Assembly: GCA_947474705.1 (NCBI GenBank)
Contig: CANJJS010000016.1
Coordinates: 1-64,000, forward strand
Direction: 5' to 3'
DNA from: Acetobacteraceae bacterium
GTDB lineage: Bacteria; Pseudomonadota; Alphaproteobacteria; Acetobacterales; Acetobacteraceae
Length of the DNA stretch: 64,000 nucleotides
A model generated the notes under the pieces. The model saw nothing but the letters and a program-made list of their open reading frames with translations. It had not been told where the DNA came from and made no database searches. The position numbers and the translations under genes were made by a program. Shown piece after piece: positions 15,609-20,475 of this stretch; position 1 is the first letter of the stretch, and the number at the start of each line of letters is the position of its first letter.

Positions 15609-16478
15609 CTACCCGACCACAAGCTGGATCGGGCCCGGCGCGTTGTCGATACTGAACGGGGTATAACCCGCGCTGTCGCCGTCGGACTGCGCCGGCGCCC
15701 GCCGATTGCCCGGAAAAACCAGGCTTTGCGCCCGCATCTGCCGCGATCCTGGCATCCGCCCGAGCCGGCCGAAGGGAAGCGCGGCCCCGTACATCAGCGC
15801 CGCCGCCGCGCCCCCCCGGTCGAACAGCGACACCGAGAAACCCGGCTCGTCCGGACGCGCGTCTGGCGCCAGTAAATAAGGACCGCCATACAGCCGGCCC
15901 TTGCTGACGATCACGCTCGCCGCATGGGTTTCCTCGCCATCTATTCGGACGGCGATGGGCTCGTAGTCGTATCGAATGACTTCCCGCAGCGTTTGCAACA
16001 CATACGCGCCCCGGCCCAAAATTCGTTTCATCACCGGATTCAAACGATGCACCACCTGGGCGTCCAGCCCAACGCCCAACATTTGCACGAACAAGGACGT
16101 CCCGTCCGGCCCGCTGATCCGGCCGGGCCAATGGGTGCGGACGCGTCCAAACGCCAAAGTCGACGCGACGCCGCGGGGCGACAGCGACAAACCCAGTTCC
16201 CGGGCCAGGACGTTGGCGGTGCCCAGGGGGATGATGCCAAGGCGGGAGGGGGTGCCGGTGAGGCCGTTGGCGACCTCGGCGATCGTGCCATCGCCCCCCG
16301 CCGCGACGATCGTCGTCTTCCCGGCCCGCGCGCCCTCGCGCGCCAGTGACTCCGCATGACCGGGATACCGCGTCTCCACGAGTTCGAAGCGCACGGCGTG
16401 GATCGCGAGCACATCGAGGACGCGCCACAGCAGTTGCGCGCGGCGCCGTCCCGCCGCCGGGTTGAAAATAATCAGCAT
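15609..16478 (-). CDS. diacylglycerol kinase-like lipid kinase (DagK/YegS)
   Basis: 289 aa from ATG 16478. DAGK catalytic domain: FNPAAG (5-10), the ATP-binding AAGGDGTIAEVANGL (GGDGT at 61-65), and the conserved LGIIPLGTANVLARELGL. The C-terminal domain is the usual beta-rich YegS-type part. Members phosphorylate diacylglycerol or related lipids. It is divergent from a PlcP-like metallophosphoesterase operon across 187 bp. If that operon releases diacylglycerol, this kinase would recycle it to phosphatidic acid (inference). The upstream in-frame extension lacks homology and was not used. Confidence 0.8.
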   Translation of the reverse strand: MLIIFNPAAGRRRAQLLWRVLDVLAIHAVRFELVETRYPGHAESLAREGARAGKTTIVAAGGDGTIAEVANGLTGTPSRLGIIPLGTANVLARELGLSLSPRGVASTLAFGRVRTHWPGRISGPDGTSLFVQMLGVGLDAQVVHRLNPVMKRILGRGAYVLQTLREVIRYDYEPIAVRIDGEETHAASVIVSKGRLYGGPYLLAPDARPDEPGFSVSLFDRGGAAAALMYGAALPFGRLGRMPGSRQMRAQSLVFPGNRRAPAQSDGDSAGYTPFSIDNAPGPIQLVVG

Positions 16479-16612
16479 CGTCAGGAAGGAACGGCGAGGG
16501 TTTGCATGGGATTCGGCGCCTGTCCAGAGGGTGGAACCGGCATGATTGCCATGGTTCGGGACTTTATTCGTGACAATTTCAAGAAACAAAGCCGGCCCAT
16601 TCCGAATGTCTT

Positions 16613-16630
16613 CTGTCATCTGAACTTAAC
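16613..16630 (+). promoter_or_regulatory. PHO-box-like site
   Basis: ctgtcat at 16613-16619, four-base spacer, then acttaac at 16624-16630. The first half matches the PhoB consensus CTGTCAT exactly; the second half matches CTGTAAC, the variant second half used in rhizobia, at four of seven positions (taac). It lies about 35-50 bp upstream of the metallophosphoesterase start, where a PhoB site would be expected. A single match of this strength can occur by chance, so this is a candidate only. Confidence 0.45.
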
Positions 16631-16665
16631 GTACACGAATCGCACCGGTGGTATTCACTGCCGCC

Positions 16666-17496
16666 ATGAACATGATCTCTCCATCTCCGCTGCTCGCCGG
16701 CACGCCGGCCTCGTATCGGACCGTGTTCCTTTCCGACACGCATCTTGGCACCAGAGGTTGCCGCGCCAGGTTCCTGGCCGATTTTCTGGCCCATGTTTCC
16801 TGCGAGAACATGTTTTTGGTGGGCGATATCATCGACGGCTGGCGGCTCCGCCGGTCCTGGTACTGGGACGAGGACCACGACGAGGTACTGCGGCTGATTG
16901 TGCGCCATGTCCGGAATGGCGCGGCGGTAACCTATATTCCCGGCAATCACGATGAAATGTTTCGGGCCTGGCTGCCCTTGCACCTGAATGTCTGCGGCAT
17001 CCGGTTACGCCGGGAAGCCGAGCATGTGATGGCGGACGGCAAACGCCTGCTGGTGATCCACGGGGACGAATTCGACAGTGTTGTGCGTTACGCTCGCTTT
17101 CTCGCGCTGCTGGGCGACTGGGCTTATACCGCCGCGCTGGTCGTCAATCGCTGGTTCAACGCGCTGCGCCGCCATCTGGGTTATCCGTATTGGTCGCTTT
17201 CCGCCTGGTTGAAACGGCAGGTGAAAGGCGCGGTGAAGGCGATAGACCGTTTCGAGTCCGCATTGGCATCGGAAGCCCGCCGCCGGGGTTTCGACGGCGT
17301 GGTCTGCGGCCATATCCATCACGCGGAAATACGCGACGTGCAAGGCGTGCTCTACTTAAACACCGGCGATTGGGTGGAAAGCTGCACCGCCCTCGTCGAG
17401 CATCACGACGGGAGGCTGGAGTTGATCGATTGGGCCCGCTTGCAACGGCTTTCATTTTTCGCCAACGGCCCGGCGGCGGCGGTGCAAACTGCTTGA
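16666..17496 (+). CDS. metallophosphoesterase, PlcP-like / LpxH-like
   Basis: 276-aa calcineurin-like phosphoesterase. Metal ligands are visible: SDTH (Asp24, His26), GDIID (Asp54), GNHDE at 93-97, then VIHGDEFD and CGHIHHAEI. The family includes UDP-2,3-diacylglucosamine hydrolases and PlcP, the phosphate-starvation phospholipase C of rhizobia and marine bacteria. Context favours PlcP: it is followed by a lipid-type glycosyltransferase and a phospholipid methyltransferase, is divergent from a DAG kinase gene, and has a PHO-box-like site upstream. The start ATG 16666 is preferred to a GTG 18 bases upstream. Confidence 0.75.
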   Translation: MNMISPSPLLAGTPASYRTVFLSDTHLGTRGCRARFLADFLAHVSCENMFLVGDIIDGWRLRRSWYWDEDHDEVLRLIVRHVRNGAAVTYIPGNHDEMFRAWLPLHLNVCGIRLRREAEHVMADGKRLLVIHGDEFDSVVRYARFLALLGDWAYTAALVVNRWFNALRRHLGYPYWSLSAWLKRQVKGAVKAIDRFESALASEARRRGFDGVVCGHIHHAEIRDVQGVLYLNTGDWVESCTALVEHHDGRLELIDWARLQRLSFFANGPAAAVQTA

Positions 17497-17533
17497 CGCG
17501 ATCCTCCCGGTCCATGCCGCCGGCGAACATTCC

Positions 17534-18583
17534 ATGATGCCTCAATCGCCCTGTCACCGTATCCTGATCGTCACCGACGCGTGGCGACCCCAGGTCAACG
17601 GCGTGGTGCGAACGCTGACCGCGGTGACCGAGGAACTGCGCGCCATGGGTCACGTGGTCGAGGTGGTCGGTCCGGACCGGTTCCGGACCGTTCCCTGCCC
17701 CAGCTATCCAGAAATCGCGCTCTCCGTGCTGCCGGGACGCCGCCTGGTCCGGATCGTCGAAGCGTTCCGTCCCGACGCGCTGCACATCGCGACGGAGGGC
17801 CCTTTGGGGCTCGCCGCGCGGCGATGGGCGCGGCGGAACGGCGTCGCGTTCACCACGGCCTTTCATACGAAATTCGCCGAGTATCTCCATGCGCGCACCG
17901 GCATACCGGCGCGGCCGGTCTATGCCTGGATGCGGCGCTTCCATGCCGCGGGGCAGGGCGTCATGGTCGCCACGGCCTCGTTACGCGCGGAACTCGCGAC
18001 TCGCGGCTTCCGCCATATCCGCGCCTGGTCGCGGGGCGTCGATCTTTCGTTGTTCCATCCGGAGCCGCGCGAGGACTGGGGCGTGAAATCCCCGGTCTTC
18101 ATTTATGTCGGGCGGGTCGCGGTCGAGAAGAATATCGGGGCGTTCCTGGACCTCGATCTTCCAGGGTCCAAGGTCGTGGTGGGTGGCGGGCCGCAACTGG
18201 CCGCCCTGCGCAAGGCGTATCCGGAGGTTTTGTTCACGGGCCCTCGCCATGGACCGGCCCTGGCGCGCGCCTACGCGGGCGCGGACGTTTTCGTGTTTCC
18301 TTCTTTGACCGATACGTTTGGCCTGGTCCTGTTGGAGGCACTGGCGTGCGGGACTCCGGTCGCGGCGTTCCCGGTCACCGGACCAATGGATGTGTTGGGG
18401 GATGCCGAGGGGTGTATCGGCGCGGTGAACACGGACCTGCGCACCGCGGCGCTGGCGGCGTTGGACGCCGATCGGGAGGCCTGCCGACGCCACGCCGAAC
18501 GCTACACCTGGCGCGCCTGCGCCGAAGCATTTCTCTCCCATCTTGTCCCGCTGACGACCCACCGCCAAACGGAGAAAGCCTGA
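17534..18583 (+). CDS. GT4 family glycosyltransferase (lipid-type)
   Basis: 349-aa retaining glycosyltransferase of family 4. N-terminal domain opens with ILIVTDAWRPQVNGVVRTL; the C-terminal donor-binding domain has FIYVGRVAVEKNI and the EX7E-type motif in PSLTDTFGLVLLEALACG. This subgroup (SqdX, PimB and Agt-like) uses diacylglycerol or related lipids as acceptors. In the PlcP-Agt pathway the enzyme puts a sugar on the diacylglycerol released by PlcP. It is 37 bp after the phosphoesterase and overlaps the methyltransferase by one base (TGATG). Confidence 0.85.
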   Translation: MMPQSPCHRILIVTDAWRPQVNGVVRTLTAVTEELRAMGHVVEVVGPDRFRTVPCPSYPEIALSVLPGRRLVRIVEAFRPDALHIATEGPLGLAARRWARRNGVAFTTAFHTKFAEYLHARTGIPARPVYAWMRRFHAAGQGVMVATASLRAELATRGFRHIRAWSRGVDLSLFHPEPREDWGVKSPVFIYVGRVAVEKNIGAFLDLDLPGSKVVVGGGPQLAALRKAYPEVLFTGPRHGPALARAYAGADVFVFPSLTDTFGLVLLEALACGTPVAAFPVTGPMDVLGDAEGCIGAVNTDLRTAALAALDADREACRRHAERYTWRACAEAFLSHLVPLTTHRQTEKA

Positions 18584-19170
18584 TGGACACAATCGCCGCA
18601 TCGCGCGCGCGGCGCGAACCGAGCGGAGCCGCCCTGTTCCTGCGCCGCTGGCTGGCCCATCCCCTGCGCATGGGGTCGGTGATCCCGTCGTCGCCCGCGT
18701 TGTGCCGGCGAATCCTGACACATGGCTGGCCAGAGCCTGGACATGCGGTGCTGGAACTGGGGGCCGGCACGGGCGTGATTTCCCGCGCGTTTCTGGAAGC
18801 GGGCCTGCCACCGGAGCGGCTGATCGTGGTCGAGGTCGATCCGGGACTCGTGGCGCATCTGCGCGATACGCTTCCCGGCGTGACCGTGCTTGAAGGCGAT
18901 GCGAAGATGTTGCCCGCGTTGCTGCCGCCGGCGTTCGGCGGGCGCATCGGGAGCGTGATTTGTGGGATTCCGCTGGTGCTGCAACCGCTGGCGGCGCAGC
19001 TTGGCTTCATTCAGGCGATCGCGGCGGTGGCGCCGGGCCGCGGCTTTCTGCATTACAGCTATTGCGCGACATCGCCGTTATCCGCCCGTAAGACGGGCCT
19101 GCGCGCGAAGCGGGTCGCGTGGACACCGTTGAACCTGCCGCCGGCAAGTCTGTGGCGTTATTCCAACTGA
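18583..19170 (+). CDS. phospholipid N-methyltransferase (PmtA-like)
   Basis: 195-aa SAM-dependent methyltransferase. Motif I is VLELGAGTGVIS; the N-terminal FLRRWLAHPLRMGSVIPSS and the C-terminal NLPPASLWRY match the Sinorhizobium-type phosphatidylethanolamine N-methyltransferase family, which makes phosphatidylcholine. KsgA-like rRNA methyltransferases are related but lack these ends. Third gene of the operon, starting in the stop of the glycosyltransferase. Pairing a phospholipid-degrading and a phospholipid-methylating enzyme in one operon suggests membrane lipid remodelling; this is inference. Confidence 0.75.
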   Translation: MDTIAASRARREPSGAALFLRRWLAHPLRMGSVIPSSPALCRRILTHGWPEPGHAVLELGAGTGVISRAFLEAGLPPERLIVVEVDPGLVAHLRDTLPGVTVLEGDAKMLPALLPPAFGGRIGSVICGIPLVLQPLAAQLGFIQAIAAVAPGRGFLHYSYCATSPLSARKTGLRAKRVAWTPLNLPPASLWRYSN

Positions 19171-19210: not shown

Positions 19211-20152
19211 TCACGAAAGGGGGCGGCCGAGCACGGCCATTAATTCCGTCCACTCCCGGCGATTGAGACCGCTGTCCGGCTGGGTGACGGGATGTCCGGA
19301 CAGCATCCGCTTCACAACCTCCAACATACAGGCCGACAGCGTCGCCGCCCCCAGCCGGTAATCCCGGAACGCCTGGGCGGCCAGCGGCACCCAGGCATCG
19401 ACGGTCTTCAACATTTCCTCTGCGTAAACCCGGATTTCGTACTGGGCATGGGCGTCGGCACGCAGCGACAGGAATCCGAACAGATTGTGCAGATCGGTCT
19501 TCCAGTACCATTGCGTGTAAGTGTTCAGCGTCAAATTCATCCGCGCCAACTCGCGCGCCAGACCCTGACGGCCGGGGTCCACGGGATTGCCGTCCGCGTC
19601 CTCGTTCAGCATCGCGGCGTAATGGTCGTAGTTGCGGGCGGCGTCGTCGCGCAGAAGATTCAGGACCTCCGCCGCCTCGTCCCCGCCCAGCACGTCGCCA
19701 CGGCCCTGGCGATTGGAGATGGACTGTGCCGCCAGATGCTCCGGCGCCGGGATATAAAATTCCCGGTCGAGGATCGAATACCGCGCGGAATATTCGTTCA
19801 CGTTGGCGGTGCGGTGCCGGATCCATTGCCGTGCCACGAAGATCGGCAGTTTGACGTGATATTTGATCTCGCACATCTCGAACGGCGTGGAGTGGCGGTG
19901 GCGCATCAAATAGCGGATCAGACCGGCGTCCTCCTGCACCCGGCGGGTGCCGCGGCCATAGGACACGCGCGCGGCCTGCACGATCGCGGCGTCGTCGCCC
20001 ATGTAATCGATGACACGGACGAAACCGTGATCCAGCACCTCCAGCGGGGTATAGAGCATGGCCTCCAGCGCGGGCGCCGTGGGGCGGGCGGTGGCGGACG
20101 ACTGGGCTCGATTGGCGGCGATCTCCGCGCGCTGAACGTCGGTCAGGGGCAT
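19211..20152 (-). CDS. thyX: FAD-dependent thymidylate synthase ThyX
   Basis: Flavin-dependent thymidylate synthase, 313 aa from ATG 20152. The ThyX signature [15 protein letters not shown] (residues 112-126) matches the RHRx7S motif. Other blocks: [15 protein letters not shown] and [14 protein letters not shown]. It converts dUMP to dTMP using folate as carbon donor and replaces ThyA. The frame remains open far upstream, but that region is the divergent tmRNA gene, so the internal ATG is used. A ggaaggggg run 14 bases before the ATG is a distant ribosome site. Confidence 0.95.
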
Positions 20153-20171
20153 GACGCACCCATAAACCCCC

Positions 20172-20200
20172 TTCCAATCGACCGCCAGAGCGCCTATATT
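20172..20200 (+). promoter_or_regulatory. candidate promoter of ssrA
   Basis: ttccaa (20172-20177), 17-base spacer, then tatatt (20195-20200). This is close to the sigma-70 consensus and ideally spaced to start transcription near 20207, just before the tmRNA acceptor piece. It lies in the short gap between the divergent thyX start and ssrA. Inferred by eye only. Confidence 0.5.
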
Positions 20201-20206
20201 CTCGTC

Positions 20207-20475
20207 TGTCAGCTTGCTGACTATGGTGATAAACGGCGCGTGGAATAATCGTTGTGGACCCGGGGGCAGTGCCCGGCGCCTCCACCAGTCCAATTGGGCT
20301 ATATGGGGGCGAAACAGGCTCGACACGCGTGGTAAAGACCCGCCTTTTGCCCGGCATGATACCGCCGTTATCGGGTCAATTTCTAAGTGCCAACGATAAT
20401 CAGGCGCTCGCCGTCGCTGCGTAAGCAGCGATAGGCGCGGTTCGGGGGGCACCGGGCAACAGAAGCCCCCCACTT
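20207..20475 (+). ncRNA. ssrA: permuted two-piece tmRNA (ssrA)
   Basis: Transfer-messenger RNA for ribosome rescue, in the circularly permuted form of alphaproteobacteria. The acceptor piece comes first and ends cgcctccacca at 20277-20287, preceded by a T-arm (cccggg loop cccgg). After a 17-base spacer the coding piece starts gggggcgaaacaggctcgac at 20305. The 7-bp acceptor stem GGGGGCG:CGCCTCC forms, with G:U at pair 3, the AlaRS identity element. The tag frame 20389-20424 encodes [11 protein letters not shown] and a TAA stop. A G6/C6 hairpin at 20444-20471 probably marks the 3' end. The 5' end is estimated from a promoter at 20172-20200; the exact mature ends are uncertain. Confidence 0.93.

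Follow-up and report, generated by a model that had tools for sequence, protein, structure and literature searches.

The window analysed here, a stretch of 64,000 nucleotides at the start of contig CANJJS010000016.1 from an Acetobacteraceae bacterium (assembly GCA_947474705.1; 5.48 Mb in 205 contigs), carries a four-gene locus that we read as a probable module of membrane lipid remodelling under phosphate starvation. Genes for a PlcP-type phosphoesterase, a glycosyltransferase of family 4 (GT4) and a PmtA-like phospholipid N-methyltransferase follow one another on one strand, a lipid kinase gene diverges from them, and a Pho-box-like site lies in between (Table 1). The original prediction, made from the sequence alone, had described this arrangement; gene calls and family searches agree with it and find all four genes at the same coordinates. 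The plcP and GT4 genes are separated by 37 bp, and the GT4 stop codon TGA (18581-18583) has one base in common with the methyltransferase ATG. Among the PlcP matches listed, the closest named one is from a Rhodopila metagenome-assembled genome (MAG; 81%) and the close named ones are mostly from Acetobacteraceae.

Table 1. Features of the locus, in window coordinates
Feature	Coordinates	Strand	Remarks
Lipid kinase gene, DAGK_cat/YegS_C	15609..16478	-	289 aa, divergent from plcP
Divergent promoter region	16479..16665		187 bp
Pho-box-like site CTGTCATCTGAACTTAAC	16613..16630	+	reads into plcP; conserved before plcP in relatives
-10-like element TATTCA	16652..16657	+	spacing as in relatives
plcP, PlcP-type metallophosphoesterase	16666..17496	+	276 aa, predicted intracellular phospholipase C
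agt-like GT4 glycosyltransferase gene	17534..18583	+	349 aa, 55% identity to P. aeruginosa Agt1 (PA3218)
PmtA-like (S-type) phospholipid N-methyltransferase gene	18583..19170	+	195 aa, start overlaps GT4 stop

The PlcP and GT4 core and its predicted promoter

Two proteins served as PlcP references. The S. meliloti protein is encoded about 2.8 kb from genes for a LuxR-type regulator and an acyl-homoserine-lactone synthase and is the sole match in its record; we take it to be the PlcP of the literature on the strength of that sole match and of this neighbourhood, presumably sinR/sinI. The P. aeruginosa references for PlcP and GT4 were taken from a segment carried on a plasmid, whose genes we presume to be PA3219 and PA3218 from their order and from an adjoining adenylate/guanylate cyclase gene. 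Such plcP-agt1 segments of chromosomal type were seen on plasmids in three P. aeruginosa records (L172, H17 and H18).

The window phosphoesterase (Pfam Metallophos, 41.7 bits; cut-off 21.5) is 50.4% identical to the S. meliloti protein over 258 aa, 53.4% to PA3219 over 251 aa and 20.8% to E. coli LpxH. It thus reaches the level of kinship that the two PlcP have to each other (47%). Against the LpxH model TIGR01854 (cut-off 190.35) the window protein scores 27.4 bits and the two PlcP score 38.9 and 44.5, where E. coli LpxH reaches 388.9; against NF003743 (cut-off 134) the window protein scores 33.6 and E. coli LpxH 364.3. Residues D24, H26, D54, N94, H95, H132, H216 and H218, among others, are kept in at least 97% of the 110 rows of the PlcP alignment, and the conserved metallophosphoesterase and PlcP residues are also present in both characterised PlcP. 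In a tree of 34 rows the lone LpxH sequence stands apart, on a single branch of about 10 changes per column that is so long that the tree adds little to the identities and models. By its sequence the protein is PlcP-type and not LpxH; the original prediction had named both possibilities and favoured PlcP, and identities, models and the tree with its single LpxH row all point the same way.

The window GT4 (Pfam Glyco_transf_4, 75.5 bits; cut-off 28.5) is identical to PA3218, or Agt1, at 179 of 328 positions. Agt1 is reported to make monoglucosyldiacylglycerol (MGDG) from UDP-glucose and diacylglycerol (PMC8528852); for its kin in the window a UDP-sugar and diacylglycerol are the predicted substrates. 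A plcP gene usually, if not always, adjoins a gene for the synthesis of a phosphorus-free lipid, and here the GT4 gene directly downstream fits that pattern. The reported substrates of S. meliloti PlcP are phosphatidylethanolamine (PE) and phosphatidylcholine (PC) in one account (PMC4796936) and PE, monomethyl-PE and PC in another (PMC3972451).

Remodelling by plcP and agt, with Pho boxes and variable neighbours, has already been described (PMC4796936, PMC8528852, PMC9239053, PMC3972451). With the plcP-agt operons of P. aeruginosa (PA3219-PA3218), Methylosinus trichosporium OB3b and SAR11 HTCC7211, and with the solitary plcP of S. meliloti, the window has in common the kinship of PlcP and GT4, the gene order and the Pho-type site (PMC8528852, PMC9239053, PMC4796936), to which it adds the overlapping PmtA-like gene and the divergent lipid kinase gene.

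Upstream of plcP the site consists of ctgtcat and acttaac on either side of ctga and runs from -53 to -36 relative to the plcP start codon (16666), in agreement with the original prediction. Compared with the textbook consensus CTGTCATN4CTGTCAT it has five mismatches and is at chance level, since 546 of 2000 shuffles of the 187-nt intergenic region are equally good. What sustains it is conservation. The consensus of relatives, CNGTCATNNAANCTTCAC, differs from the window site at two positions, a match equalled by none of 2000 shuffles. Of 104 distinct plcP upstream regions, 71, the window included, carry this consensus on the plus strand with at most three mismatches (shuffle mean 0.7, maximum 3), a count whose independence is overstated as the consensus was drawn up by eye from, and counted on, related upstream regions. 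Duplicates and two regions at contig ends (L042 and L105) were removed before promoter counts. The trinucleotide TAT starts 20-24 nt past the box in 29 of 52 relatives with at most two mismatches, versus 2 and 0 at two control offsets. A scan with the sigma-70 consensus did not find a promoter. In the window the -10-like element stops 8 nt short of the plcP ATG (16652-16666), and the spacing looks similarly short in many relatives, so that plcP transcripts may have almost no leader.

The genome encodes PhoB (327.2 bits; cut-off 296.2), with a pst/phoU set, recognised by eye in the open reading frames, beside its gene, and GTGTCATCTAACTGTCAT, a Pho box with one mismatch, lies 65 bp before pstS. 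With two or fewer mismatches the genome contains 18 copies of the plcP-type box, the window site among them, and 6 of its reversed pattern; one two-mismatch box precedes an acid phosphatase gene (TIGR03397, 433.3 bits; cut-off 362.75). The generic Pho box at three or fewer mismatches yields 168 sites versus 81 for the reversed pattern, so that single generic matches mean little, which is why we relied on conservation in relatives. Eighteen generic or plcP-type sites were inspected: one precedes pstS and one the acid phosphatase gene, three are followed by no reading frame of 100 aa or more, two overlapping ones precede a gene for an exported protein that has no family match, and the remainder lie before or within genes with no visible phosphate link (among others gyrase-like by eye, epimerase, rhodanese, TPR protein, solute-binding protein). 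The overlapping pair (contig C91, 777-805; L126 and L232) is in an 11-bp register, and the exported-looking protein behind it, which reaches the contig end, matches neither a Pfam nor an NCBIfam model. Because the site before plcP is conserved in relatives, a Pho-type promoter is supported there, with a predicted PhoB site.

Gene order across relatives and linkage of the methyltransferase

Gene order was read in 80 named loci, the best of at least 587 confirmed PlcP matches and thus biased to close kin; L089 and L118 were left out of the counts, and some of the fetched stretches stop at contig ends. A GT4 gene lies downstream of plcP, on the same strand and within 1 kb, in 74 of these loci, a kinase gene diverges from plcP within 1 kb in 62, and 59 have both. 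The fetched 5 kb flanks contain a methyltransferase gene in only 12 loci, in several arrangements. The original prediction had considered kinase and methyltransferase alike to be unusual additions; this fits the methyltransferase but not the kinase, given its frequency and the Pho-dependent diacylglycerol kinase, DagK, already described (PMC5082522). An Acetobacteraceae MAG has two plcP-GT4 pairs in tandem (L071, 4199-7879) and stands outside the 74, its better-scoring GT4 belonging to the second pair.

Within the genus of the window the phosphoesterase is found in 22 of 23 further genomes and a strong methyltransferase match in 11 of 14 genomes searched, beside plcP in 4 of those 11. One genome of the genus (G004, contig C568, 20760-21300; L161 and L165) has its methyltransferase match split over two frames, by a frameshift or an assembly error. 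A wider methyltransferase search covered 24 chosen genomes or records, that of S. meliloti and 23 from among the 80 named loci. Many carriers of plcP and agt have no methyltransferase, therefore the module works without it.

Around plcP the methyltransferase gene may stand downstream, on either strand, or upstream, or on the far side of the kinase gene. Otherwise it usually lies next to a pleD-type gene (read in 11 loci), in some of these also with a glutathione-transferase-like gene, both neighbours being named from recognised sequence starts. A methyltransferase tree of 43 rows, from which three partial rows had been removed, separates the clade of the window from the PmtA of S. meliloti and Mesorhizobium. 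Partial or split genes were excluded by a length filter, among them the one beside plcP in G015 (L110) and the split gene mentioned above. On this tree linkage to plcP changes 8 times by plain parsimony (shuffled mean 14.0), and well-supported branches force at least three changes, which can be one gain and two losses. The methyltransferase has probably joined the plcP locus more than once.

Sites with at most three mismatches to either pattern were counted in the 250 nt upstream of methyltransferase genes, in groups that are small and were formed after a first look. They are absent from all 12 genes of the pleD group (shuffle mean 0.17), present before both copies of G009 and G011, which lie away from the GT4 promoter (2 of 2; shuffle mean 0.02), and present before 3 of 7 genes near plcP that have a promoter of their own (shuffle mean 0.12), one of these three sites (L070) lying in a region shared with plcP. 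The stand-alone rows L160, L162 and L216 fall outside this count; L162 has a three-mismatch site. L156 was called pleD-linked by kinship, as its contig ends with no pleD-type neighbour visible, and its upstream region is short. On a plasmid of Roseomonas mucosa (L217, 2002-3576) a second, near-identical plcP, present besides the plcP-GT4 pair, directly precedes the methyltransferase gene. Both plcP copies have a two-mismatch plcP-type site at -74, and the second copy and its methyltransferase gene are followed by UgpC-like and UgpA-like genes (best models, under the cut-offs).

These observations bear on the strongest alternative, namely that this is an ordinary plcP-agt operon next to which the methyltransferase gene has merely moved as a passenger; in other species the enzyme would make methylated PE or PC constantly, and there would be no functional coupling. 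The frequent place beside a pleD-type gene, the lack of Pho-box-like sites in that group, the occurrence of plcP-agt with no methyltransferase and a minimum number of label changes compatible with a single gain all speak for it. Linkage to plcP in differing orientations, the higher parsimony count, the overlap with the GT4 stop codon in the window and the Pho-box-like sites of some relocated copies speak against it, and we hold this alternative to be unlikely, though it deserves a serious hearing.

The divergent kinase matches Pfam DAGK_cat (96.4 bits; cut-off 23.6) and YegS_C (55.2; cut-off 27) and is the sole DAGK_cat match found in the genome. On its own side of the intergenic region, a site that points into the kinase gene and departs from the generic Pho box at three positions or fewer is present in 30 of 80 relatives (shuffle mean 0.6, maximum 4). 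Because of its place we take it to act on diacylglycerol. Another lipid, such as ceramide, phosphatidylglycerol or a glycolipid, would be the alternative, since bacterial kin include the ceramide kinase CpgB and the phosphatidylglycerol kinase YegS (PMC10331486) and the window kinase falls short of every one of the NCBIfam models listed for it. In 62 of 80 loci, however, the kinase gene has as neighbours the genes whose products form and consume diacylglycerol, and a different substrate appears rather improbable. In Pseudomonas putida BIRD-1 a Pho-dependent diacylglycerol kinase, DagK, is induced together with PlcP in low phosphate (PMC5082522); unlike the window kinase, its gene is not presented in that account as a divergent neighbour of plcP.

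Family and predicted product of the methyltransferase

The window methyltransferase has only a modest Pfam match (RrnaAD, 27.3 bits; cut-off 24), and the genome contains a single match to it. Against the structure of A. tumefaciens PmtA (AtPmtA; 9KO3/9KO5, PMC12139422) the chain 9KO3 is matched with an E-value of 1.9e-23. In chain numbering derived from this alignment, E58, G60, G62, E84, D106 and A107 carry the same numbers in both proteins, and the groove tyrosine Y161 of AtPmtA corresponds to Y160 here. The AtPmtA variants E84A and D106A are almost inactive, A107F loses much of its activity and Y161A is severely impaired (PMC12139422), and E58, G60, G62 and E84 have been named as essential residues of PmtA (PMC3972451).

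Two further groove residues concern the product. AtPmtA, with Ala128 and Ile159, proceeds to PC, whereas BdPmtA, with Gly and Phe, makes mainly monomethyl-PE, and the Ile/Phe swap changes the product (PMC12139422). The window protein has Gly128 and Tyr158 and lacks the Ile159 of AtPmtA, so that its groove is closer to that of BdPmtA. With both published enzymes it has in common the S-adenosylmethionine (SAM) motif, E84, D106, A107 and the groove tyrosine, and it differs from them in belonging to a separate, mainly Acetobacteraceae clade that lies under the PmtA cut-off and is partly plcP-linked. In the alignment, from which four of the 42 other methyltransferase rows (L056, L058, L189 and L203) are absent, the groove glycine is found in 17/18 plcP-linked, 11/11 pleD-group and 10/14 other rows. 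An aromatic residue occupies the second position in 17 of the 18 plcP-linked rows (13 Tyr, 4 Phe) and in 10 of 11 pleD-group rows; the PmtA of S. meliloti and Mesorhizobium have Ala and Ile. The L074 row deviates at two catalytic positions.

By analogy, the window enzyme is predicted to make mainly monomethyl-PE and not full PC, a prediction which extends the published Phe to Tyr and would cover much of the family, beyond its plcP-linked members. The PmtA-like synthesis arm of the original prediction is thus retained as regards the catalytic residues, but full synthesis of PC is not what the groove predicts. The three CDP-alcohol transferases of the genome are PgsA (above the cut-off), a PgsA-like and a PssA-like protein (both below); no PC synthase model is among their matches, and a Rhodobacter-type PmtA was not searched for. 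A betaine lipid partner was also considered and rejected, as the genome has no BtaA-family match (PF11899).

An ornithine lipid might be methylated instead, in the manner of OlsG, to give a phosphorus-free methylated aminolipid. The OlsG model (cut-off 350) gives the window methyltransferase 67.3 bits, and the genome encodes an OlsB homologue that scores 273.4 and 270.9 bits, under cut-offs of 320 and 350. That OlsG score is unspecific, however, for S. meliloti PmtA itself reaches 65.8. The window enzyme also scores better against the PmtA model and keeps the PmtA catalytic residues and tyrosine. We consider ornithine lipid methylation to be quite improbable. Least credible, to the point of being negligible, is an LpxH-type phosphoesterase in a locus for lipopolysaccharide synthesis: LpxH is of the same superfamily and 24 of the 32 plasmid records with a match label the protein UDP-2,3-diacylglucosamine diphosphatase, but the LpxH models far under their cut-offs, the 21% identity and the presence in the genome of LpxI (154 bits; cut-off 25), which performs the LpxH step of lipid A synthesis, contradict it.

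Downstream, the methyltransferase gene faces a convergent neighbour on the minus strand (19211-20473), which, judged by a motif, looks like a ThyX-type thymidylate synthase.

A probable remodelling module with added arms

Taken together, the locus would serve PhoB-controlled membrane remodelling from phosphorus lipids to sugar lipids in low phosphate, a reading to which we give a probability of roughly three in four. It rests on gene content and order, on kinship to characterised PlcP and Agt1, and on the conservation of the promoter site and of the catalytic residues of the methyltransferase; from these we infer that PhoB binds and that the plcP-strand genes are co-transcribed, what each of the four enzymes uses and makes, and what methyltransferase and kinase are for.

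In low phosphate PhoB would bind at 16613-16630, with joint transcription of plcP, agt and the methyltransferase gene. PlcP would cut the phosphorylated head group off PE-type phospholipids, and GT4 would add a sugar, glucose by analogy with Agt1, to the resulting diacylglycerol, giving a phosphorus-free glycolipid. The methyltransferase would methylate PE, mainly to monomethyl-PE as its groove residues suggest, and this lipid may either feed PlcP or keep the remaining phospholipid bilayer-forming against a build-up of non-bilayer glycolipid. The former could apply because S. meliloti PlcP is reported to be active on monomethyl-PE and PC (PMC3972451). The divergent kinase would turn surplus diacylglycerol back into phosphatidic acid.

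Several observations count against this reading. The best NCBIfam match of the methyltransferase, PmtA (NF045881), gives 105.2 bits, well under its cut-off of 250 and compared with 376.1 for S. meliloti PmtA. The aromatic groove residue also occurs in 11 of 14 rows outside the linked groups and is no special mark of plcP-linked genes. Methyltransferase matches are lacking from 2 of the 13 plcP-bearing genomes searched within the genus, and in the wider search 6 of 24 genomes or records have none at an E-value of 0.001 or below and 4 more have weak ones only. The kinase reaches the cut-off of none of the 11 NCBIfam models listed, missing that of TIGR00147 by little (108.1 of 118.65), and the best Pho-box match on its side of the window has five mismatches; the reading also gives no reason why a starving cell should spend ATP on rephosphorylating diacylglycerol. 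Several plcP-type boxes in the genome stand before or inside unrelated genes. Our odds are set a little lower in view of how common the aromatic groove residue is across the family, and because the tree does not force repeated gains.

As for precedents, the main texts of two studies of plcP and agt (PMC4796936, PMC9239053) do not use the words kinase or methyltransferase, their neighbourhoods being shown in figures and supplements. Phosphate islands of marine HIMB59 combine pst, phoRB, a diacylglycerol kinase, "LpxH", a glycosyltransferase and in some cases a methyltransferase (PMC10734472). There the authors read LpxH as a lipid A enzyme, the methyltransferase is a SET domain protein according to the legend, and the passages on these islands describe no operon like that of the window (PMC10734472). 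We found no description of a plcP-agt-methyltransferase operon in the open-licence literature searched.

The locus is thus a variant, marked by its methyltransferase, of a known kind, PlcP-Agt remodelling; sequence evidence supports the core well, and the added arms are predictions. It would extend this remodelling, with a clear promoter signature, to Acetobacteraceae-type bacteria. In 24 of the 32 plasmid records with a match, PlcP is concealed under the annotation UDP-2,3-diacylglucosamine diphosphatase, a name that may mislead the interpretation of phosphate-related gene clusters. The lipid kinase divergent from plcP is widely conserved, and its part in phosphate starvation of these bacteria is predicted. 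For the methyltransferase that joined the locus, the prediction of monomethyl-PE is made at the level of residues and is readily testable. More tentatively, and as a possibility that we put below even odds, part of the Acetobacteraceae may have recruited the methyltransferase, probably repeatedly, into phosphate starvation, converting PE to monomethyl-PE, which PlcP would then cut or which would remain as a bilayer-forming counterpart to the new glycolipid. Together with a Pho-controlled kinase this would turn the one-way PlcP-Agt route into a three-way switch, in which phospholipid is methylated, is cut and glycosylated, or is recovered by rephosphorylation.

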